Assembly (NCBI GenBank): GCA_030747595.1
Contig: JASLKK010000005.1
Coordinates: 1-64,000 of the forward strand
From: Acidimicrobiales bacterium
GTDB lineage: Bacteria > Actinomycetota > Acidimicrobiia > Acidimicrobiales > MedAcidi-G1
Direction of reading: 5' to 3'
DNA: 64,000 nucleotides
Numbering within the stretch: position 1 is the first letter of the stretch; each line of letters opens with the position of its first letter. The position numbers were made by a program, and so were the translations under genes. Below the pieces are notes generated by a model. That model was not told the origin of the DNA. It made no database searches and worked only from the letters and a program-made list of their open reading frames with translations. Shown here piece after piece: positions 4,103 through 15,912 of the stretch.

Positions 4103-5590
4103 CTACGGCCTCCCCGGGGAACCCTCGCCGGGGAGACCGAGACCACCTGGGACACCGCCTGGCGTCTCGCCCAGCCCGGGCAGCGAAAGGCCCTTCTTCT
4201 TGTCGATCGGCGCCGGCCCAAGTGCCGTCGTCCGACCACCTCCGCCCCTTCGACCCTTGCCCCGGCCCTTACCAGCAGAAGGCCTGCCACCAGAGCGCCG
4301 ACCCTTGCCGCCCATTTGCTTCATCATCTTTCGCATTTCACGGAACTGGCGGACCAACTGGTTGATCTCGTTGGGCTGGGTGCCACTGCCCGCAGCGATC
4401 CGTGCCCGACGGGAACCGTCGATGACGTCCGGGGCGGCCCGCTCACCGGGAGTCATCGAGTGGATGATCCCCTCGATCCGGTCGATCCGGCGTTCATCCA
4501 CTTCGGCATCCACACCCTTCAGCTGTTGGGCCATCCCGGGGACCATTCCCATGATGTTGCTGAGCGGCCCCATCTTCCGAAGGGCCTTGAGCTGCTCGAG
4601 AAAGTCGTCGAGGGTGAAGGTCCCGTCCATGAGGCGGGCGGCGGCAGCCTCAGCCTCGGCCTGTTCGAACGATTCTTCGGCCTTCTCTATGAGCGTTTCG
4701 ACGTCGCCCATACCCAGGATCCGACTGGCCAGGCGGTCCGGGTGGAACAGGTCAAAGTCCTCTAGGGCCTCCCCAGTCGACGCGAAGGCGATGGGACGAC
4801 CCACCACCTCCTTGACGCTCAGCGCTGCACCGCCCCGGGCGTCGCCGTCCAACTTGGTGAGCACAACCGCGTCCAGTGAGAGCCGGGCATGGAAAGCCTC
4901 AGCTGTGTTGACGGCGTCCTGGCCGATCATGGCGTCGACAACCAGGAGGGTGTGGTCCGGGTCGAGTACCGCCGCCATTTCGGCCACCTCGGCCATCAGG
5001 TCATCGTCAACGGCCAGGCGCCCCGCCGTGTCACAGATGACGACGTCACGTCCCAGGCTGCGGGCCTGCGCCAGACCGGCACGAGCCACGGAGACCGGGT
5101 CGGTGGCCTCGCTGAACACCGGTACGTCGATGCGGGCAGCCAACGTCCGTAACTGCTCGACGGCCGCCGGGCGTTGGAGATCAGCCCCGATCAGCATCGG
5201 GTTTCGTCCTTGGGCCTTGAACCAGCGGGCCAACTTCGCTGCCGTGGTCGTCTTGCCTGATCCCTGGAGGCCGGCGAGCAGCACCACCGTCGGAGGCTTA
5301 GATGCGTAGGTCAGCCGATGGGTCTCGCCTCCGAGCACCCCGGTGAGCTCCTCGAGCACGATCTTGACGACCTGCTGTCCGGGATTGAGGGCTCCGCTGA
5401 CCTCGACGCCGACGGCCCGCTCGCGGATCCGATCCTGGAAGGTCCGAACCACCGACAGGTGAACGTCGGCCTCCAACAGGGCTACCCGAAGCTCGCCGAG
5501 GAACTCTTCGACGTCTTCGGGACCGAGCCGACCTTTGCCCCGGATCCGTTTTAGGACCCCCTCGAATCGACTACTCAGACTCTCGAACAC
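4103..5590 (-). CDS. ffh: Signal recognition particle protein Ffh (SRP54)
   Basis: The 495-residue SRP GTPase binds signal peptides of membrane proteins and 4.5S RNA. The N domain spans residues 1-95. The G domain follows with P-loop GLQGSGKTT (107-115), the DTAGR switch region and TKLDGDARGG. The methionine-rich M domain runs to about 435, with MGPLSNIMGMVPGM. The last 60 residues are an unusual tail: a basic GGKGRRSGGRPSAGKGRGKGRR stretch, in two parts, then a Gly/Pro/Leu-rich end. Next to ftsY, its receptor. Confidence 0.97.
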   Translation of the reverse strand: MFESLSSRFEGVLKRIRGKGRLGPEDVEEFLGELRVALLEADVHLSVVRTFQDRIRERAVGVEVSGALNPGQQVVKIVLEELTGVLGGETHRLTYASKPPTVVLLAGLQGSGKTTTAAKLARWFKAQGRNPMLIGADLQRPAAVEQLRTLAARIDVPVFSEATDPVSVARAGLAQARSLGRDVVICDTAGRLAVDDDLMAEVAEMAAVLDPDHTLLVVDAMIGQDAVNTAEAFHARLSLDAVVLTKLDGDARGGAALSVKEVVGRPIAFASTGEALEDFDLFHPDRLASRILGMGDVETLIEKAEESFEQAEAEAAAARLMDGTFTLDDFLEQLKALRKMGPLSNIMGMVPGMAQQLKGVDAEVDERRIDRIEGIIHSMTPGERAAPDVIDGSRRARIAAGSGTQPNEINQLVRQFREMRKMMKQMGGKGRRSGGRPSAGKGRGKGRRGGGGRTTALGPAPIDKKKGLSLPGLGETPGGVPGGLGLPGEGSPGRP

Positions 5591-5603
5591 GGTCGGCTTC
5601 TCC

Positions 5604-6509
5604 TCAGGCCGTCACATCAACGGCGAAGAGTGCGTCCACGAAGTCCACCGGGTCGAACTCGACGAGGTCGTCGGCGCCCTCACCCACCCCGACCAGCTTC
5701 ACCGGAATACCCAGGTCCTCCTGCACGGCGACCACGATGCCGCCCCGGGCCGAACCGTCCAACTTGGTCAGCACGATGCCGGTCACGGCAGCCACCTCAG
5801 CGAACTGCCGGGCCTGGATCAATCCGTTCTGCCCAGTGGTGGCATCTATAACCAACAGCGTCTCGGTCACCGTGCCTGAGCCCTTCTCCGCCACCCGCCG
5901 CACCTTGGCCAGCTCGTCCATCAGGTTGGACTTCGTGTGGACACGACCGGCCGTGTCGGCCAGGACGAGGTCGGCACCTCGGGCCGCCGCGTGTTCAACG
6001 GCGTCGAAGACCACAGAGCTGGGATCGGCGCCCTCCGCGCCCCGCACTACCGGCGCACCGGCGCGATCGGCCCACATAGCCAACTGGTCGGCCGCCGCGG
6101 CCCGGAAGGTATCGCCAGCAGCAAACACCACATGACGGCCCGCGTCAGCCTCACGGCCACCCAACTTCCCGATGGTCGTCGTCTTGCCCACCCCGTTCAC
6201 ACCGACGAACAGCCACACCGACGGACTTCCGCCAAGGGCCAGCGAGCGATCGGCGCCACCCAGACGATCCACGAGAACCGACTTGAGGATTCCCAGCACC
6301 CCGTCGACGTCGTCCACGCCCTCACGCCCAACCCGCTGGCGGACCTCGTCCAACAACTCGTCAGCTGTCGCCACGCCGACGTCGGCCAAGATCAGGGCGT
6401 CACCCAGTTCCTGCCAGATGCGATCGTCGACCACCTCGGATGCACGGATCGTGGCGAGGTGCGAAGACCATGCGTCGCGGGCACGACCGAGACGGGAGCG
6501 GAGACCCAT
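5604..6509 (-). CDS. ftsY: SRP receptor GTPase FtsY
   Basis: A membrane-associated GTPase that pairs with Ffh to deliver ribosomes to SecYEG. With the ATG at 6509 it has 301 residues: N domain 1-95, P-loop GVNGVGKT (103-110), DTAGRVHT, and TKLDGSARGG. The acidic A domain of enterobacterial FtsY is absent, as in many Gram-positives. The start is chosen because the protein then begins MGLRSRLGRARDAW, an amphipathic basic helix suited to lipid binding, and because a TAGCCT box lies 8 bases upstream. A longer frame reaching 6629 would overlap the htrA end. Confidence 0.95.
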   Translation of the reverse strand: MGLRSRLGRARDAWSSHLATIRASEVVDDRIWQELGDALILADVGVATADELLDEVRQRVGREGVDDVDGVLGILKSVLVDRLGGADRSLALGGSPSVWLFVGVNGVGKTTTIGKLGGREADAGRHVVFAAGDTFRAAAADQLAMWADRAGAPVVRGAEGADPSSVVFDAVEHAAARGADLVLADTAGRVHTKSNLMDELAKVRRVAEKGSGTVTETLLVIDATTGQNGLIQARQFAEVAAVTGIVLTKLDGSARGGIVVAVQEDLGIPVKLVGVGEGADDLVEFDPVDFVDALFAVDVTA

Positions 6510-6517
6510 GGCCCGAA

Positions 6518-6523
6518 AGGCTA
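6518..6523 (-). promoter_or_regulatory. Putative -10 box, leaderless ftsY
   Basis: TAGCCT on the minus strand ends 8 bases before the ftsY ATG, with no ribosome site between. This fits a TANNNT -10 with transcription starting at or next to the A of the start codon. Confidence 0.5.
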
Positions 6524-6573
6524 CCGGTGGGGTTCCGATCCGAACCCGGGCCGGAACCGGGCTGAACGTTGGG

Positions 6574-8169
6574 TCAGTCGTCCGCGTCCCCGCCGGTAGA
6601 CGGTTCGGTGAACTGGTCGTCGAGAGCACCCAGATCGACCTCGATCAGGAGGATCTCTCCATCTCGGTCCACCTCCAGGTCGACCGACGTTCCCGGCAAA
6701 CGAATCTGGATGTCGGCCCGCAACGCCGGCATGTCCCGGATGAGCCGACCATCGGAGCGGAAGATCCGGTCGCCCTCCAGCAGACCCGCACCGCTGGCCG
6801 GAGATCCCTCGATGACCTCCACGATGACCGCCCCGAAGTTGCCGTCGGTCGGGGACTCGCCTCGGATCCCCAACCACGCGGTCCCAACCGGCTCGCCGGT
6901 GATCAGACGGCGGGCCACCAGGACCACGGTGTCACTGGGCAGGGCAAACCCCAACCCGATATTTCCTCCGGTAAAGGCTCCACCAATTTGAATCGAGGTG
7001 TTCATCCCGATGATCCGGCCGTCACGGTCAGCTAGCGGGCCACCCGAGTTGCCCGGATTGATCGGGGCATCAGTCTGGATCATGGCCACGCCGGCACAGT
7101 CGGCGCCCGCCCCCGACTCGCAGCCGTAGGAATCGATGACCCGACCAAGGGCACTCACAATGCCCGCGGTCACCGTCCGATCCAGGTCGAACGGACTGCC
7201 GACGGCCACCGCCAACTGTCCAACCTCCAGGTCCTCGCTAAAGGCGAACACGGCGGGCACCAGGCCATCTGCCGGCTCGACCAACTCGAGCACGGCGACG
7301 TCGCGTCGCACGTCGACGCCGACCACCGTGGCGGCGATCTCCCGGCCGCTGGGAAGCGTCACGAGAATCTCGTCGGCGCCGTCCACCACATGGGCGTTGG
7401 TGACGATCCGCGACTCGTCGAACACGATGCCCGAGCCGTGACCCTTGTCGATCGCTGTAACGAGCACAACAGTGTCCCGCAGGGCCTCGGCCACCGCCAC
7501 CACCGGTTCCTCGCCCGAATCGTCAACGGGTGCCTCCGCGAAGAGTCGGGCCACCAATGCCTCGACTTCTATTGCCGTCAGGCCCGCCGACTCTTCCACG
7601 AGGCGACTGACCACAGCCTCCACCTCGCTCTGGTCGAGGCCTGCTGCCTCTTCGACCACCGTCGACACGATGGAGGACACCTCGGCGGAACTGAGCCCCT
7701 CGGTCTCGGCCCCGCGATCGGCCAAGCGGTCAGCCACGATGGCTTCCACGTCGGCTGTGGAGAGGGTGTCGGAGGACTCGACCCCAGCGGACTCACGGGC
7801 GAGGATCTCCCGGACCTCGTCAGCGGTCAGACCCGACGATTCGCCCACACGCACCCGCTCGACCAGGTCGGCCACCACGTCGGCAGAGAACGCCAGGTCG
7901 TCATCGTCGCCCCGGAGCATCCAGCCGGCAACCGCACCGGCCACCAGGGCGGCCACCAGCACGGCGATGGCGAACACGCCGGCCAATACCCGGCCGGTGA
8001 GGCGTAGCGGCGCCTCGATCGGCGGCACGGGAGCCGGGAGCAGTCCCGGAAAAGACGGCTCGTCGGGACGAGGCGGCGTAACCGAACCGGCCCGGCGGCC
8101 GACCTCGATACTCCGTCGCTCAACGGATCGTGGAATCGGCTGTTCCTCGGGGCTCGATTCTTCAGGCAT
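6574..8169 (-). CDS. Membrane-anchored HtrA/PepD-type serine protease with PDZ domain
   Basis: 531 residues. A cytoplasmic Pro-rich tail (1-58) is followed by one transmembrane helix (about 61-84). Then comes a long helical linker (95-213) made of five repeats of the type GLxxxEVexiV. The trypsin-like domain follows with catalytic His260 (TNAHVV), Asp290 (RRDVAVL) and Ser375 (GNSGGPL). A C-terminal PDZ domain starts near 430. It acts in the periplasm-equivalent space on misfolded envelope proteins. It lies downstream of a response regulator and kinase, matching the mprA-mprB-pepD order of mycobacteria, so envelope-stress control is likely. A TACCTT box 7 bases before the ATG suggests its own leaderless promoter. 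Confidence 0.93.
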   Translation of the reverse strand: MPEESSPEEQPIPRSVERRSIEVGRRAGSVTPPRPDEPSFPGLLPAPVPPIEAPLRLTGRVLAGVFAIAVLVAALVAGAVAGWMLRGDDDDLAFSADVVADLVERVRVGESSGLTADEVREILARESAGVESSDTLSTADVEAIVADRLADRGAETEGLSSAEVSSIVSTVVEEAAGLDQSEVEAVVSRLVEESAGLTAIEVEALVARLFAEAPVDDSGEEPVVAVAEALRDTVVLVTAIDKGHGSGIVFDESRIVTNAHVVDGADEILVTLPSGREIAATVVGVDVRRDVAVLELVEPADGLVPAVFAFSEDLEVGQLAVAVGSPFDLDRTVTAGIVSALGRVIDSYGCESGAGADCAGVAMIQTDAPINPGNSGGPLADRDGRIIGMNTSIQIGGAFTGGNIGLGFALPSDTVVLVARRLITGEPVGTAWLGIRGESPTDGNFGAVIVEVIEGSPASGAGLLEGDRIFRSDGRLIRDMPALRADIQIRLPGTSVDLEVDRDGEILLIEVDLGALDDQFTEPSTGGDADD

Positions 8170-8176
8170 GGAGGAG

Positions 8177-8182
8177 AAGGTA
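8177..8182 (-). promoter_or_regulatory. Putative -10 box, leaderless htrA
   Basis: TACCTT on the minus strand lies 7 bases before the ATG at 8169. The intervening CTCCTCC is anti-Shine-Dalgarno in sense, so a normal ribosome site is absent. Confidence 0.5.
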
Positions 8183-8252
8183 GACGGAACAGGGCGCGTT
8201 ACCGACGCAGCGCGCCTATGACCGCCCCGGCGACCGCGCTGACGGTCTCGCC

Positions 8253-9524
8253 TCAGATGCGGTCCCTACGGGACACGATCCGGTCCACGTACCGGGGTAA
8301 CCACACGGCGAAGGTCGCACCTTCGCCCGGGACGGACCGGACGGTGGCTCGTCCCCCATGACCCTCGGCGATCTGTCGGACGATGGCCAGACCCAGCCCT
8401 GACCGTCCTACCTCCCGAGCTGATGCCCGGTCGCCCCGCCAGAATCGCTGGAAAACATGTTCGAGGTGCTCGACGGCGATTCCTGGCCCGTCGTCGACCA
8501 CCGATACCCACACCATGTCGTCATCGCGGCCGGTGGCCACCCGAACCACCCCGCCACCGTCCGACACCCGAATGGCGTTGCTCAACAAGTTGGCCACCGC
8601 CCGCCGGAGGGCAGCCGCGTCGGCCAATACGTCAAGGCCCGATCGTTGCTCGAGCTCCAGCACTACGCCCGCCCGTCCGGCCGCCGCTCCGAAGTCCTCA
8701 ACTGTCTCGCCCACCACCACTGCCAGGTCCAGTGGTTCTCGGGTCGCATCGGGTCGCTCGTGGTGGGCATATAACAGGAGGTCGTCGACCAGAACCGACA
8801 TCCGCTCAGCCGCCCGCAGGGCAACCGACCCGGCGGCCCGAAAGTCCTCAGGCGAGGCATCCGGATCGGCCATGACGACATCGAGGTTGGTCCGCAGCAC
8901 GGCTAGCGGGTTTCGGAGCTCGTGGGAGGCTTCGGCCACGAACCGGCGCTGACCCTCGAAGGACTCGTCGAGTCGGCCCAGCATCTCGTCGAACGTGTCA
9001 GCTAGGTCACGAAGTTCGTCCGACGGTCCACCCAGGTCAATGCGACGCGACAGGTCGGTGGCGGTGATCTCACGGGCCACCGCCGAGATCCGGCCAATAG
9101 GACGGAGCACCAGGCCGGCCACGTACCACCCGACCACCAGGCTCCCGAGGAACAAGCCAGCCAACGCGGTGAACGAGTAGGCCCGCAGCCGTTCAAGGGC
9201 TCGCCGGTTGACCTCTTCCTCGAAGATCACCAGCCACGGCCGGGCCGGCCGGTCGTCGGGGGTCAGCGAAGCGGGCTGCTCGGCGGCCCCGTCCGTCGTG
9301 CCAGCAGTGGCACCTTCAGCAGCGCCGTCGGCCAACTGCTCGAAACGAGCCAGACGCGACATGGGTTCATCCGACAACGCCCGAGACAGGCCCAGGTAGA
9401 TGGCCCCGATCATCACGGCAGCTAGAGCGAACAGGACGATCGAGTACAGCAGGGCCAGACGGGTCCGCAGGCTGCCGAACCGGTCAGGCATCCGGTCGGC
9501 CATCCCGACCACGGACGCCTTCAC
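8253..9524 (-). CDS. Sensor histidine kinase (HAMP, HisKA, HATPase)
   Basis: 423 residues. Transmembrane helices lie at about 23-45 and 118-140 and enclose a 70-residue extracytoplasmic sensor rich in Ala/Gly/Thr. A HAMP linker follows (141-192). The phosphoacceptor is His201 in EASHELRNPLAVL. The ATPase part has an N-box NLLSNAIRVS, VDDGPGI and SGLGLAIV. The GTG start at 9524 overlaps the response regulator stop (GTGA), so the two are coupled. Together with the downstream HtrA the set resembles MprB of MprAB-PepD; orthology is inferred from gene order only. Confidence 0.95.
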   Translation of the reverse strand: MKASVVGMADRMPDRFGSLRTRLALLYSIVLFALAAVMIGAIYLGLSRALSDEPMSRLARFEQLADGAAEGATAGTTDGAAEQPASLTPDDRPARPWLVIFEEEVNRRALERLRAYSFTALAGLFLGSLVVGWYVAGLVLRPIGRISAVAREITATDLSRRIDLGGPSDELRDLADTFDEMLGRLDESFEGQRRFVAEASHELRNPLAVLRTNLDVVMADPDASPEDFRAAGSVALRAAERMSVLVDDLLLYAHHERPDATREPLDLAVVVGETVEDFGAAAGRAGVVLELEQRSGLDVLADAAALRRAVANLLSNAIRVSDGGGVVRVATGRDDDMVWVSVVDDGPGIAVEHLEHVFQRFWRGDRASAREVGRSGLGLAIVRQIAEGHGGRATVRSVPGEGATFAVWLPRYVDRIVSRRDRI

Positions 9525-10225
9525 CCGTCGGTCCCGTCTTTGACTCCCGGATCAAAAAGCCGGTAACCGGATCCGACCACCGTCTCGAGTGCTGGATCCT
9601 CATCGCCCACCGTCAACTTGCGACGCAAAGTGCCGACGGTGACCCGCACCGTGTTGGTGAACGGATCGGCGTGTTCGTCCCACACGTGGTCCAGCAACTG
9701 CTCCTGGGAGATGACCTCACCCGGCCGGGTCATGAAATACCGCAGCACAGCGAACTCCTTGGCCGTGAGCGCCAGGTCCCGGCCACCACGACGAGCGTGA
9801 TGGCGGGCCGTGTCAACGACCACGTCCCCCACCTCCAGCACGGCACCCGATCGACCGGGATCACGCCGAAGCAGTGACCGGATACGCGCCGAGAGCTCGT
9901 CGAAGGCGAAGGGCTTAACCAGGTAGTCGTCGGCCCCCACGTCGAGACCACGAATGCGGTCCTCCAGAGTGTCGCGGGCCGTCAACATCAGTATCCGAGG
10001 CACCACCTCGTCAGGCGGATCGGCCCGTAGGCGTTCGCAGACCTCGAGCCCATCAATGCCGGGCATGGTCAGGTCCAGGCAGATCAGGTCGTACGGCGTC
10101 CACGAGGCCTTGGCCAGCGCCTCCTCACCGTTGTCGGCCGTGTCCACCGCGTAGCCCTCGCGGCGGAGACCACGGGACAGAGCGTCGAGCAGATCGGCCT
10201 CGTCATCGACCACGAGGATGCGCAC
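9521..10225 (-). CDS. OmpR/PhoB-family response regulator
   Basis: 234 residues. The receiver domain has the acidic pair DDE (7-9), phosphoacceptor Asp51 (LICLDLTMPG), the switch Thr in MLTARD and the conserved Lys in DYLVKPF. The C-terminal winged helix ends with the typical VVGSGYRL. It would be phosphorylated by the kinase encoded immediately downstream. The GTG start at 10225 has no ribosome site but has TACCGT 7 bases upstream. Likely targets include its own operon and htrA; binding sites were not identified. Confidence 0.95.
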   Translation of the reverse strand: MRILVVDDEADLLDALSRGLRREGYAVDTADNGEEALAKASWTPYDLICLDLTMPGIDGLEVCERLRADPPDEVVPRILMLTARDTLEDRIRGLDVGADDYLVKPFAFDELSARIRSLLRRDPGRSGAVLEVGDVVVDTARHHARRGGRDLALTAKEFAVLRYFMTRPGEVISQEQLLDHVWDEHADPFTNTVRVTVGTLRRKLTVGDEDPALETVVGSGYRLFDPGVKDGTDG

Positions 10226-10314: not shown

Positions 10315-13300
10315 TCAGCCGTTGGTGAGGACGCCGAGGCGTTCGGCTACGCGGGCCGCCTCGACCCGTTCGCTGACCACCTTCGAGGAGCCACCGGGAG
10401 CCATGGATACCCCGTACAGGCAGTCCGCGGCCTCCATTGTGCGCTTCTGGTGGCTCACGATCACCAACTGCGCGTCGTTACGGAACTGGTCGACCAGTCC
10501 GAGGAAGCGGTGGAGGTTGACGTCGTCGAGCGCCGCCTCGACCTCGTCCATCACGTAGAAGGGCGACGGACGACTACGGAACACGGCGAACAGGAAGGCC
10601 AGCGCGGTCAGCGACCGTTCACCACCCGACAGCAGCGAGAGCTTCTTGACGTTCTTGCCCGACGGACGTGCCTCGACCTCCAGCCCGGTCTCCAGAAGGT
10701 CATCGGGATCAGTGAGGCGAAGGCGACCCTGTCCGCCCGGGAACAACGACTCGAATAGATCGGTGAAATGGCCGGACACCTCCGCATAGGCCGCGGCGAA
10801 TACCGAGACGATCTCCTCGTCCACCGAGCGGATGACCTTGCGGAGTTCCTTGCGGGTGGACCGGATGTCGTCCAGCTGCTCCTGGAGGAACTCGTGTCGC
10901 TCCTTCAGGGAATCAAACTCGGTCAGGGCCAATGGGTTGATGGGTCCCATGAGCTTGAGTTCCCGCTCCAGCTCGGCGATCCGGGCCGCGGCCAGGATTC
11001 CGTCGGGCAGCACCGGGCATGGTGCCTCGATGGCCGCCTCGGGCTCCCGATCGAACTCGACACGAATGGTGGCCGTAACGTTCTCGATCCGCATCCGGGT
11101 CTCGGCCCGCTCGATCTCGAGCCGGGACTGACGTTCCCTGATCTCTCGGAGAGCGGTCTCGGCCTCGGTTCGCTCTCGACGGAGACCGTCCAGTCGGGCG
11201 GCCACGGCCCGGACCCGCTCGGACTGTTGGCGACGATGCTCCCGTAGCACCTGGAGTCGGGCGTCGACCAGGGCCATTCGGACGTCAATGGCCTCGACCA
11301 GTTGACGGGTGGCCGATTCACGGCCGACCAGGTCGTCCCTCTGGGCCGCGGCGGCAACCCTTTCATCGGAGAGCTGTTCGAGGCGGGCCCGCAGCTCCAC
11401 AACCCGGGCTCCCACCACGGTGCGTCGACCCATCACCTCTGCGACCCGGACGTCGTGTCCGGTCCGCGATGCGCCAATGGTGGCCGATCGCTCCTCAAGC
11501 GATGCCCGGGCGGCGTTCATCCGCCGGCCGGCTTCCACCGAGGCCACCTCGTCGGCCTCCAGAGCGGGCAGGCGGTCATCCAACTCAGCCACCCGGCGGC
11601 CATCGTCGGCCAGACGCTGGTCCAGTTCACCGACGCGGGACCGCAGTCCCTCGGACTCGGTGGCGAGGTCCCGCCGCTCCACTTGGAGCCGCTGCAATGA
11701 CTCGGCCGCCGCGGTGAATCGACCGTCGTGCTCATCGAGGGACCGGTTGTGACGGGCGACCTCGTCCTCAGCCAATGTGGTGCCCTGCTCGGCATCGTCG
11801 AAAGCCGCTGACGCGTTCACCTGTTCTGATCCGGCCGCGGCCAGCCGGGACTCGGCCTCGGCGAGTGCGGCGCCGGTGGCACCCCGACCATCGCCTCCGA
11901 CCCGCCAGCCCGACGGGCCGAACCGGTCGCCCGAGGCGGTCACCAGCACGGCTTCAGGGTGACGCAGCGCCAGGTCCACGACCTCGGTCAACGGTGCGTC
12001 GACCAACGCCGCGTGACCCAGCAGTCGATCGAGTAGCCCATCGACACCGGTGGCTGCGTCAGCAACATCCAATCGAGCCCGGACGTGGGGGCGAACCGGG
12101 GAGCCGACCATCGGAGCTGACCGCCCGGTGGCACCGGCCCCTAGGGCCAGCACGGCAGCCGACAGGCGGCCCTCCTCCAGCGCAGTCAACGCCTCACGAG
12201 CGTGATCGGGGCCACGAACCACTACCGCATCCAGCGCCGAGCCGGCCGCCGCCTCGAAGGCAGCCTCGAATCCCTCGTCGACCTCGACCAAGTCCAGCAG
12301 GGTGCCCAACACCCCGTCGATTCCCGCCAGGTGTTCGGTACCGGCTCGTGATCGGGCCTCGTCGAGGGCCAGGGCTAGGGCATCCACGCTCGCTGATGCG
12401 GTACGTACCTCGGCCTCGGCGGCCACCACCCGTTCCCACGCGGCGTTCCGCCGCACCGATGCCTGATGTGACCGGGCCTCCGCAGCGGTCGCCTCGGCGA
12501 CCAGCGGCTCCTCGGCGGTCTCGCCCACCGACAGGTCGGCTCGCAGGCGGTCGGCCTCACCGTCGAGTCGTTCCGACGCTTCGTCGAGCGCCGCCAGTCG
12601 GTCGGCCAGCCGATTCCGTTCGATGCCCGCCTGATCCACCGAGGCCCGTAGGACCCCCAGCTCGCCTCGGGCCTCGGCCGCATGTCCACCGAGTGCCGGA
12701 ATCCCCTCAGACCAGTCCATCTCAAAGGCGGCCCGGTCGGCCACCAGCTCGGTCTCGGCCAAGGCCAGGCGCTCTGCTTCGGGCGCCAGCTCCTCGGCTT
12801 CGGCATCGAGACGGCCCATTTCGGCCTCTGAGCGGTCCAGTTCGGCTTCGAGACCCACCACGACCTGCTGGGAGATCAGCGCCGAGCGATCCCGTTCCAG
12901 TCCCCGGAGCCGTTCGACCAGCACTCCCCGGATGCCCCGGCCCCGCTCACGCAATGCCTCGAATCGGACTAGACGATCGCCGAGATCGTCGCCACCGCGA
13001 ACCGCCAACTCGGCCTCGGCGGCCACCACCTCAGCATCGAAGCGGGCCAACGACGTGGTGTGTGTGGACTCGGTGGCGGCCAACGTCGAACGGTTCTCGG
13101 CCTCGTCACGTGCCCGGGTACGGAGGCTGGCTAGCTCGCGGCCTGCTCGATGGAGGCGTAGGGCCGTGAGTTCGTCGAGTAGGTCGCCATGTCGGCGGGC
13201 CGCATCGGCCTGTCGTTCGAGGGGTCGCAATTGGCGCCGGACCTCGCGGAGCAGGTCCGACAGCCGGTCCAGGTTGGCTTCGGTGGATCGCAGCCGACGC

Positions 13301-13833
13301 TGGGCCTTCTCCTTGCGGCGCCGGTACTTCAGGATTCCAGCAGCGTCCTCGATGATGCTGCGCCGGTCCTCGGGACGGGCGTTGAGCACGGCGTCGATCT
13401 GGCCCTGGGAGATGATGACGTGCTGCTGGCGGCCCACGCCGACGTCGGACAGCAGTTCTTGAATATCGAGCAGCCGGCACGGCGCTCCGTTCATCGAGTA
13501 CTCGCTGTCACCACTGCGAAACAGCGTGCGGGTGATCGTGATCTCATTGAACTCCACCGGAAGTTGACCGGACGAGTTGTCGATGGTCAGCGAGACCTCG
13601 GCCCGCCCGAGGGCGGCCCGCGTCGAGGTGCCGGCGAAGATCACGTCGTCCATCTTCTGGGAACGCACGGCGCTCGGCGCCTGGGCACCGAGCACCCACG
13701 CGATGGCATCCACCACGTTGGACTTGCCGCTCCCGTTGGGGCCGACCACGACGGTCACCCCGGGTTCCATCTCGAGGGCTGCCGAGTCGGCGAACGACTT
13801 GAATCCCTTGATGGTCAGACGCTTCAGGAACAC
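10315..13833 (-). CDS. smc: Chromosome segregation ATPase SMC
   Basis: 1172 residues, full length for SMC, the condensin core that loops and resolves chromosomes with ScpA/ScpB. The N-terminal head has Walker A GPNGSGKSNV (31-40) and GRQQHVIISQGQID. Two long coiled coils flank a hinge at roughly 500-640 that contains the Gly-rich residues. The C-terminal head carries the signature LLSGGERSLTALAF and Walker B YVMDEVEAALDD. The GTG start at 13833 gives the family N-terminus MFLKRLTIKGFKSF. It lies downstream of the mutM-position gene and rnc, a classical order. Confidence 0.97.
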   Translation of the reverse strand: MFLKRLTIKGFKSFADSAALEMEPGVTVVVGPNGSGKSNVVDAIAWVLGAQAPSAVRSQKMDDVIFAGTSTRAALGRAEVSLTIDNSSGQLPVEFNEITITRTLFRSGDSEYSMNGAPCRLLDIQELLSDVGVGRQQHVIISQGQIDAVLNARPEDRRSIIEDAAGILKYRRRKEKAQRRLRSTEANLDRLSDLLREVRRQLRPLERQADAARRHGDLLDELTALRLHRAGRELASLRTRARDEAENRSTLAATESTHTTSLARFDAEVVAAEAELAVRGGDDLGDRLVRFEALRERGRGIRGVLVERLRGLERDRSALISQQVVVGLEAELDRSEAEMGRLDAEAEELAPEAERLALAETELVADRAAFEMDWSEGIPALGGHAAEARGELGVLRASVDQAGIERNRLADRLAALDEASERLDGEADRLRADLSVGETAEEPLVAEATAAEARSHQASVRRNAAWERVVAAEAEVRTASASVDALALALDEARSRAGTEHLAGIDGVLGTLLDLVEVDEGFEAAFEAAAGSALDAVVVRGPDHAREALTALEEGRLSAAVLALGAGATGRSAPMVGSPVRPHVRARLDVADAATGVDGLLDRLLGHAALVDAPLTEVVDLALRHPEAVLVTASGDRFGPSGWRVGGDGRGATGAALAEAESRLAAAGSEQVNASAAFDDAEQGTTLAEDEVARHNRSLDEHDGRFTAAAESLQRLQVERRDLATESEGLRSRVGELDQRLADDGRRVAELDDRLPALEADEVASVEAGRRMNAARASLEERSATIGASRTGHDVRVAEVMGRRTVVGARVVELRARLEQLSDERVAAAAQRDDLVGRESATRQLVEAIDVRMALVDARLQVLREHRRQQSERVRAVAARLDGLRRERTEAETALREIRERQSRLEIERAETRMRIENVTATIRVEFDREPEAAIEAPCPVLPDGILAAARIAELERELKLMGPINPLALTEFDSLKERHEFLQEQLDDIRSTRKELRKVIRSVDEEIVSVFAAAYAEVSGHFTDLFESLFPGGQGRLRLTDPDDLLETGLEVEARPSGKNVKKLSLLSGGERSLTALAFLFAVFRSRPSPFYVMDEVEAALDDVNLHRFLGLVDQFRNDAQLVIVSHQKRTMEAADCLYGVSMAPGGSSKVVSERVEAARVAERLGVLTNG

Positions 13834-14001: not shown

Positions 14002-14844
14002 TCAGACCTGGGTTTCGCAGTAGTAGGTCCAGCCGCCCTTGTACTTGATCCGCTGGATCGGAGTCCGGTTCCGATCGCTGAGAGCGCCGGCCCGGGCGTA
14101 GACCGCCAGGTGGTCGCCGTAGACGCCCGGTTCGCCGTACACGTCACGAAAGGGACGTTCCTCTATGTCGGTGCCCCGGTACTTGATGGCGTCGTTGACC
14201 ACCTGAATCAACGCACCATGGAGCCGACGGACCTCCTGGTGGGAGAGGCTGTCCGACATCCGGTCGTGCCTCAGGCCAGCGTGGAACAGGATCTCATCGG
14301 AATAGACGTCACCCACGCCGACCACGATCGAGGAATCACAGAGGAGGTCCTTGAGATGCATCTGTCGAGCCAGCACCTGGCTGCCGAATGAGGTCCACGG
14401 GATCATCTCCCCGGCCGGATCCATGCCTCCGGCTGCCACTTCAGGGAACTCAGCCACCAACTCATCACCACCGATCACGCACACCTGCGAGCCACCCTCG
14501 GGGTCGACCAGGCGCACGTGTCCACCCACGGTGAAAGTACCGGTGATCTCGGTGCCTGGCTCTACAGCGTCGCGGGCCGTATTGCGTCGCATCTGCGCCC
14601 CGGGACCGAGCTTGATGACCAGCAACTGGCCGTCGTCGAGCTCGGAGACCAGCAGGAGGCCCATGCGCCGGACCGGGCCGAGCTTGCGACCTTCTAGGCG
14701 ACTGGTGAACTGCTTGCGGTTGCGGTAGCGACCGAGGGTGGCCATGGACGCTGCCTCCACGGTCTTCAGCTTGCGTCCCGAGATCTCTCGATCGAGGGCG
14801 TAGCGGATGGTCTCCACCTCGGGTAGTTCGGTTTCAATGCTCAC
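14002..14844 (-). CDS. Fpg/Nei-family DNA glycosylase homologue with altered active site
   Basis: 280 residues in the usual mutM position between rnc and smc. The Fpg fold is recognisable: ELPEVETIRYAL at the N-terminus, VGVGDVYSDEILFHAGLRHDR in the helix-two-turn-helix region, and GDHLAVYARAG near the end. Key catalytic parts are changed. Fpg starts PELPEVE with Pro as the nucleophile; here the protein starts MSIETELPEVE, with Thr in that place. The active-site Lys of RR(G/A)KY is replaced (VRRMGLLL). The C-terminal zinc finger keeps only one cysteine (YYCETQV). The GTG start is firm: AGGAG lies 5 nt upstream and it overlaps the rnc stop (GTGA). It may bind DNA without classical glycosylase activity. 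Confidence 0.85.
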   Translation of the reverse strand: MSIETELPEVETIRYALDREISGRKLKTVEAASMATLGRYRNRKQFTSRLEGRKLGPVRRMGLLLVSELDDGQLLVIKLGPGAQMRRNTARDAVEPGTEITGTFTVGGHVRLVDPEGGSQVCVIGGDELVAEFPEVAAGGMDPAGEMIPWTSFGSQVLARQMHLKDLLCDSSIVVGVGDVYSDEILFHAGLRHDRMSDSLSHQEVRRLHGALIQVVNDAIKYRGTDIEERPFRDVYGEPGVYGDHLAVYARAGALSDRNRTPIQRIKYKGGWTYYCETQV

Positions 14845-15644
14845 GGGGACTCCTGGGAGATCACGGGACGAGACGGGGGCGCAGGGGGTGCACCCACGGG
14901 AACGAGGGCGGGACTGGATGACTCGAGGGACTCGATGGCAATGCAGGCCAGCAGGGCGGCAGCCTGTTCGGCACGCTTCTTGGAGGTTCCGATGGCCGGA
15001 CCATGACGCTTCCCGGCCGCCACAACCGCTGCGTGGAAACGCTTCTCGTGGTCAGGGCCGTCGTCGGTCACCTCGTAACGCGGCGCCGGTTCGGATCGAC
15101 GGGCGACGAGTTCCTGGAGACGAGTCTTGTGGTCGTGGCCGCCGGGCTCCTCGGCCGATCGATCGAGCAGGTCGGCGAAGAGGCGATCGATGAGCGTCCG
15201 GGCGGCGTCCAGACCAGCGTCCAGGTGAACGGCTCCAATCACGGCCTCGAGGGCGTCGGCCAGGATCGACTCCTTGTCGGCGCCGCCGCTGGTCAGCTCG
15301 CCCCGGCCCAGACGCAGGGCGCCACCGAGGCTGATGCCGCGGGCCGTCTCGGCCAGTGCCGGAGCGCTCACTACCGAAGCTCGGATCTTGGCCAGTTGAC
15401 CCTCGGGAAGTTCCGGTTGGTCACCGAAGGTGCGTTCGGCGATCACCAGACCGAGGACCGCGTCGCCGAGGAATTCCAGACGTTCGTTGGACACCCCGTC
15501 ATGCTCCGCGCACCATGACCGATGGGTCAGGGCGTCGACCAGTAGCCCGGGATCGGTGAACTCGTGTCCGATGGCCACGACCAGAGCGGACGAGTCGGGC
15601 TGCTGTGGGACCGGGGAGGGGTCAGCCGAGGCGGGAAACGACAT
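14841..15644 (-). CDS. rnc: Ribonuclease III
   Basis: A double-strand RNA endonuclease that processes rRNA precursors. The signature NERLEFLGDAVLG (residues 53-65) and second acidic cluster DALEAVIGAVHLD provide the catalytic Glu/Asp residues. The C-terminal double-stranded RNA-binding domain (about 165-240) ends KRAEQAAALLA. The ATG at 15644 gives 267 residues and overlaps the end of acpP by 23 bp. A GTG further in (MAIGHEFTD) is a possible alternative start. The acpP-rnc-mutM order is typical of actinobacteria. Confidence 0.95.
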   Translation of the reverse strand: MSFPASADPSPVPQQPDSSALVVAIGHEFTDPGLLVDALTHRSWCAEHDGVSNERLEFLGDAVLGLVIAERTFGDQPELPEGQLAKIRASVVSAPALAETARGISLGGALRLGRGELTSGGADKESILADALEAVIGAVHLDAGLDAARTLIDRLFADLLDRSAEEPGGHDHKTRLQELVARRSEPAPRYEVTDDGPDHEKRFHAAVVAAGKRHGPAIGTSKKRAEQAAALLACIAIESLESSSPALVPVGAPPAPPSRPVISQESP

Positions 15645-15912
15645 AGTCGACGGCATCGCGGACCGTACGAAGGTCCTCGAGGTCGTCGTCCTCGATCCGA
15701 AAGCCGACTGAGCGCTCGCTGAACTCCTCTTCGATGGCCTCCACGAGTTCGATGAGGGCGAGCGAATCGGCATCCAGGTCGTCGGCGAACGACGCACCCT
15801 CGGCGATCTCGGTCGGCTCGATTTCCAGGATGTCAGCCAGACGATCCCGAACCAGTTCGAGAACCTCGTCGCGCCCGACCGGGGCGCCCTCCACATGGGT
15901 TTCTGCAGGCAC
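15622..15912 (-). CDS. acpP: Acyl carrier protein
   Basis: 96 residues. The phosphopantetheine site is the Ser in DDLDADSLALIELVEAIEEEF, the standard DSL motif. The remainder is acidic and helical, as expected of ACP. The GTG at 15912 is selected because AGGAG lies 5 bases before it; the reading frame extends further but without a ribosome site. It carries acyl chains for fatty-acid synthesis, and PlsX, which uses acyl-ACP to make acyl-phosphate, is encoded just upstream. A 198-bp gap before it holds a spaced direct repeat that could be an operator. Confidence 0.95.
   Translation of the reverse strand: MPAETHVEGAPVGRDEVLELVRDRLADILEIEPTEIAEGASFADDLDADSLALIELVEAIEEEFSERSVGFRIEDDDLEDLRTVRDAVDYVVSRLG

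Follow-up and report, generated by a model that had tools for sequence, protein, structure and literature searches.

The rnc–FpgL–smc locus

The window analysed here, i.e., the whole stretch of 64,000 nucleotides at positions 1 to 64,000 of contig JASLKK010000005.1 (assembly GCA_030747595.1, an Acidimicrobiales bacterium), carries on its minus strand, between the genes of RNase III and SMC, an open reading frame (14002..14844) encoding a degenerate MutM-like protein of 280 amino acids, here named FpgL, whose characterization relies on the Pfam domains Fapy_DNA_glyco and H2TH, on an AlphaFold model and on dN/dS. Upstream lies rnc (14841..15896) and downstream smc (10315..13833), both identified by Pfam (the latter by SMC_N and hinge) and both on the same strand as FpgL. 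The GTG start codon of FpgL (14842..14844, minus strand) overlaps the TGA stop of rnc (14841-14843) in a GTGA, and an AGGAG (14850..14854, minus strand) represents, by motif and spacing, the putative ribosome-binding site. An offset of −8 is shared here by nearly all family members examined that have a readable rnc. The initial annotation had regarded this start codon as real because of the overlap and the AGGAG, an assignment strengthened by the conservation of the N-terminal arrangement among the relatives, which rules out a misannotated start. An assembly error is likewise ruled out by a further public assembly from this species (DPMC01000235.1), 100% identical, and by a congener 98–99% identical. 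Beyond smc, the window (4103-10225) contains a response regulator and a histidine kinase, an HtrA-like protease with PDZ domain and ffh.

Residues lost and retained

Comparison of FpgL with E. coli Fpg, with the canonical MutM encoded elsewhere in its genome and with many orthologs bears out the premise from which this analysis started, namely that the protein in the mutM position has lost its catalytic residues and its zinc finger. The site of the catalytic N-terminal Pro, the nucleophile of MutM/Fpg, is occupied in both the sequence and the structural alignment by Thr5 (ACC, 14830..14832, minus strand, as are all the following positions); the Thr had been correctly placed at the outset, but the extra residues preceding it are three and not four, Thr being residue 5 and Pro residue 2. 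The catalytic, phosphate-binding Lys56 of the RRGKY loop is replaced by Leu63 (14656..14658). In the segment Lys78-Leu-Gly-Pro81 (14602..14613) both His70 and the intercalating Met73 are lost (to Lys78 and Pro81, respectively), and in Glu116-Gly-Gly118 (14491..14499) the intercalating Arg108 and Phe110 are lost (to Glu116 and Gly118), the void-filling Met/Arg/Phe triad being thereby absent. Asn168 of the H2TH motif has become Asp179 (14308..14310) and Arg258 has become Gly271. What is left of the four-Cys zinc finger is a hairpin (14005..14106) in which Cys1 is replaced by Ser and Cys2 by Asn, Cys4 is deleted and Cys3 is kept as Cys276 (codon 14017-14019), this being the single finger Cys already recognized in the initial annotation. 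On the other hand, Glu2, which adjoins the Pro in MutM/Fpg and corresponds to Glu6 of FpgL, as well as Glu5, Lys154, Tyr170 and Glu173, are retained.

Both Pfam models score FpgL above their cut-offs (Fapy_DNA_glyco 47.7 bits, cut-off 25.5; H2TH 57.8 bits, cut-off 34.7), and the NCBIfam fpg equivalogs match it below theirs (151.3 vs 212 and 142.7 vs 203.3). The AlphaFold model, built with 74 aligned locus sequences, has a mean pLDDT of 94.3 and a pTM of 0.90, and aligns with MutM bound to 8-oxoG DNA (1r2y) with Z 33.2 and an rmsd of 2.4 Å over 272 residues, Thr5 superposing on the catalytic Pro2. FpgL is thus predicted to retain a complete Fpg/MutM fold with its H2TH motif; with this and the place between rnc and smc, the earlier statement that fold and locus are kept stands.

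The N-terminus and the overlap with rnc

In many canonical copies from Acidimicrobiia the gene begins with ATG CCT GAG and the TGA stop of rnc lies within the Pro and Glu codons. The overlap persists in many degenerate copies, where the codon in place of the Pro opens with a different pair of letters (TTT GAG, CTT GAG, GCT GAG, CGT GAA), these NNT-GAR codons placing Phe, Leu, Ala or Arg in the position of the Pro; others have an ATGA overlap, followed by Ile, or an equivalent GTGA, followed by Asn. In the family to which the window belongs the GTGA or ATGA is located three codons further upstream, yielding a Met-Ser/Thr-x-x extension. In the window and among loci L072–L131 the residue replacing the Pro follows the type of overlap (NNT-GAR, ATGA or GTGA). 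From these patterns we infer that the N-terminal end would now be shaped by the coupling to rnc instead of by catalysis.

Distribution and phylogeny

None of the 17 genomes of the genus lacks the gene, which is present in 48/48 genomes of the family, and the N-terminal Pro start is missing in every family copy with a readable N-terminus. A degenerate locus copy occurs in about 20 families and, within the order, adjoins rnc and smc wherever the contig permits a check; the presence of degenerate orthologs across family and order rules out a peculiarity of this one genome. The degenerate loci L193, L205 and L209, which belong to other orders of the class, adjoin rnc as well, and in two of these three smc was found downstream within the stretch retrieved. 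Degenerate locus copies are characteristic of a large group of mostly uncultured actinobacteria comprising the Acidimicrobiales and some relatives, and canonical copies occupy the same rnc–smc locus in further families, both within the order and elsewhere in the class. In a family of the class with genomes of ~1 Mb (f65), the match to FpgL is absent or very weak.

A tree of 128 sequences unites the degenerate copies in a single clade (98 SH-aLRT), with the mildly altered L108 as the sole exception. They group again (97 SH-aLRT) in a second tree, calculated with a mixture model after removal of the catalytic columns, the exceptions being L108 and L205, and a topology that keeps the 53 degenerate rows other than L108 in one group is not rejected (AU p 0.72). 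Many independent losses were therefore discarded in favour of a single clade, which fits the trees, with L205 as a possible exception. This locus (genome G302, another order of the same class) is degenerate, keeps Pro and zinc finger, belongs to a family with canonical relatives and is accompanied by a canonical MutM elsewhere in the genome; it possibly represents a second origin of the degenerate copy. Two partly degenerate locus copies, L108 (G052) and L126 (G104), are found in genomes having no second canonical MutM and are possible intermediates.

In several lineages that branch off early, Lys, His, Met, Arg/Phe and Asn are gone but Met-Pro-Glu is retained, frequently together with the zinc finger; the crown of the degenerate clade is additionally devoid of Pro and finger. 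This branch order suggests a sequence of losses in which the recognition, intercalation and Lys residues would have gone first, followed later, in the crown, by the Pro and the zinc finger.

Within the 55 crown members on which the residue counts are based, a Pro is found at the nucleophile position in one, where it is not N-terminal, and the Lys56 position is occupied by Leu in 45 and by Lys in one. Acidic residues stand at the Arg108 position (Glu/Asp) in 27/55 and at the Asn168 position (Asp/Glu) in 41/55. The crown positions of Pro, His, Met, Arg, Phe and Arg258, invariant in the canonical locus copies, fall between the 86th and the 91st percentile of variability. Glu2 is kept in 47/55, Lys154 of the H2TH in 55/55 and Cys276 in 55/55, the other finger Cys being lost, and invariant residues are spread over the whole length of the degenerate copies. 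His245, Trp272 and Tyr274 are conserved and crown-specific.

The second, canonical MutM

Three Fpg/Nei genes are present in the genome of the window, namely FpgL, a Nei-like protein and, on contig C7, a canonical MutM having all the residues and an fpg equivalog score of 253 bits. The search for a canonical mutM that had been proposed as a check is thereby answered, and the possibility that the genome has no MutM is ruled out. Across the order, the canonical second copies group in a clade of their own (99, 128-sequence tree). When 96 chosen genomes were scored with the fpg equivalog, a second match above the cut-off was found in 63 of the 74 with a degenerate locus and in 0 of the 22 with a canonical one, an association reflecting a few evolutionary events and not 96 independent tests. 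Repair appears to be carried out by the second MutM, elsewhere in the genome.

All 8 genomes of genus g4 (G027–G034), which belongs to the family of the window, are among the 11 exceptions: by fpg equivalog scoring no canonical MutM was detected in 8/8, and the degenerate copy and a Nei-like protein are present. This absence rests on metagenome-assembled genomes 72–96% complete, all eight of which agree. In G064, too, the degenerate protein is kept and a canonical MutM was not detected. As far as these genome sequences tell, 8-oxoG repair in the small g4 genomes must rest on something other than MutM.

Selection and charge

The pairwise dN/dS of the degenerate protein ranges from 0.024 to 0.176 (21 pairs); in the 11 pairs with readable neighbours it is 0.035–0.126 for FpgL, 0.045–0.156 for smc and 0.049–0.274 for rnc. 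These ratios indicate strong purifying selection on the degenerate protein, comparable to that on its essential neighbour smc, and rule out a recent pseudogene.

The 36 genomes possessing both proteins allow the locus copy to be compared with the MutM of the same genome: its net charge is lower in 34/36 pairs and higher in 0 (Wilcoxon p 4e-7, a value too small, the genomes being related), and the median pI is 6.0 vs 9.1. The net charge of the degenerate copies falls in the N-lobe and in the H2TH, and basic residues contacting the lesion (63, 116, 35, 38, 271 in part) are lost, some being replaced by acids. The basic sites invariant in canonical copies are kept in 19/28 cases, including most of the finger hairpin, where nearly all such residues (R258, R260, R265, K267) are retained; of the acidic sites 11/23 are kept. 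The charge pattern points away from lesion binding and would still be compatible with binding of undamaged DNA.

What could be the function of FpgL?

Since the Pro, the Lys and the intercalation triad are all gone, neither base excision nor extrusion of a lesion is to be expected of FpgL, and the combination of lost chemistry with persisting selection argues for a non-enzymatic role. FpgL is probably a catalytically dead, lesion-blind MutM homologue that has been kept for such a role. Catalysis lost and protein kept by long-lasting selection are the hallmarks of a pseudoenzyme, here proposed for the Fpg family; the second is found in the dN/dS, in the one clade spanning about 20 families and in the presence of the gene in 48/48 genomes of the family, and the first would follow from the residues missing.

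That FpgL is instead a decaying relic, a mere spacer ensuring the translational coupling of rnc and smc, is hardly credible in spite of the widespread start–stop overlap with rnc, given a dN/dS (0.03–0.13) as low as that of smc, the lack of internal stops in every listed copy and the distribution of the invariant residues. An active enzyme with altered chemistry, such as a monofunctional glycosylase using Glu2 or an activity on RNA or nucleotides, is improbable. Some chemistry would be compatible with the retention of Glu2 in most of the crown, with the invariant Cys276 and with the conserved His245, and the P2A mutant of M. smegmatis Nei2 retains 5-hydroxyuracil glycosylase activity (PMC11323726). 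However, Nei2 K51A loses both glycosylase and lyase (PMC11323726) and the aligned Lys is lost in FpgL; furthermore, no new conserved residue has appeared at the Pro, His, Met, Arg and Phe sites, which vary widely. Such free drift of the former active-site positions also disfavours the “enzyme with new chemistry” contemplated in the initial annotation. Were FpgL to regulate the canonical second MutM or act as its partner, this would account for their co-occurrence in 63/74 genomes and for the absence of a second MutM where the locus copy is canonical, but such a role seems very improbable, because g4 (8/8) and G064 keep FpgL without a detectable canonical MutM, so that FpgL is probably not merely a MutM accessory, and because the co-occurrence is explained by redundancy having allowed the loss of catalysis. 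Of the “structural partner” suggested initially, a partner of MutM itself is thus unlikely, and other partners may still be envisaged.

A role on DNA, as an architectural or damage-sensing protein acting through the H2TH and finger half without base excision, is unlikely, albeit with more to recommend it: Lys154 is present in the whole crown, the finger hairpin has lost hardly any of its basic residues, the 19/28 basic sites retained would also suit real DNA binding, and the Nei2 P2A mutant, although devoid of AP-lyase activity, remains functional in the repair of psoralen crosslinks in vivo (PMC11323726), which indicates that a role on DNA can persist in a lyase-dead member of the family. Against it stand the loss of the residues that probe and hold the lesion, several of which have become acids (notably at Arg108 and Asn168), and the fall of net charge in the N-lobe and H2TH. 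With the lesion-probing triad gone, the “DNA-damage sensor” also proposed at the outset is disfavoured, at least in the Fpg sense.

By elimination, and with modest confidence, we favour an adaptor role. FpgL probably descends from the ancestral MutM of the rnc–mutM–smc operon. Sequence analysis shows that a lineage of Acidimicrobiia carries a second canonical MutM and that its locus copy has lost, apparently in this order, the recognition, intercalation and Lys residues and then, in the crown, Pro and finger, and has stayed in place under strong purifying selection. The resulting protein presumably has no glycosylase or AP-lyase activity. Less certainly, it could serve as an adaptor or structural component produced alongside RNase III and SMC; its conserved core and the basic residues of the H2TH/finger half, most of them conserved, would contact a protein partner (SMC, RNase III or another), and perhaps undamaged DNA. 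Tentatively, a single conversion in a large bacterial lineage might have made an ex-repair enzyme a conserved, non-enzymatic member of the rnc–smc operon, e.g., a chromosome-organization (SMC) or RNA-processing factor, the second MutM taking over repair. As the sequences reveal the order of the losses, the intermediates and the takeover by a second MutM, the fate of such an ex-repair enzyme is testable. In practical terms, best-hit annotation would name FpgL MutM and could mis-assign 8-oxoG repair to it, above all in g4, which has no other detectable MutM.

Comparison with known systems

Among kinases and proteases, pseudoenzymes are a familiar phenomenon. In the open-licence literature we found no description of a bacterial Fpg/Nei pseudoenzyme, nor any report of the FpgL clade, be it as an Acidimicrobiia Fpg, as an Fpg pseudoenzyme or as an inactive MutM paralogue.

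With bacterial MutM/Fpg (BaFpg1 clade) FpgL shares the Fpg fold, the H2TH motif, the rnc–smc locus, Glu2, Glu5, Lys154, Tyr170 and Glu173, but it differs in having no Pro, Lys56, His70, Met73/Arg108/Phe110, Asn168 or Arg258, in the loss of the finger and in its acidic pI. Human NEIL1 and the plant and fungal Fpg are active enzymes with an N-terminal Pro and a catalytic Lys; unlike them, the FpgL clade has lost the chemistry as well. Their likeness to FpgL consists in the loss of the finger Cys with retention of the hairpin (zinc-less finger: PMC3188539). Like FpgL, the mycobacterial Fpg2 (Rv0944) is an actinobacterial Fpg paralogue; in M. tuberculosis it is truncated and devoid of the catalytic N-terminus, whereas M. 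smegmatis and M. avium have a full-length protein, and, as it is not described as the rnc–smc copy, its locus would differ from that of FpgL (PMC2734929). The BaFpg2 clade of a published classification keeps four Cys (PMC3188539), whereas FpgL has Cys276 only. Finally, NEIL3, for which a scaffold role has been suggested, and Nei2 P2A (PMC11323726) resemble FpgL in having a non-Pro N-terminus or in functioning in vivo without lyase activity; yet NEIL3 uses Val2 after removal of the Met, whereas in FpgL the corresponding position is expected to be blocked by the extension or by a retained Met, and the Lys is lost too.
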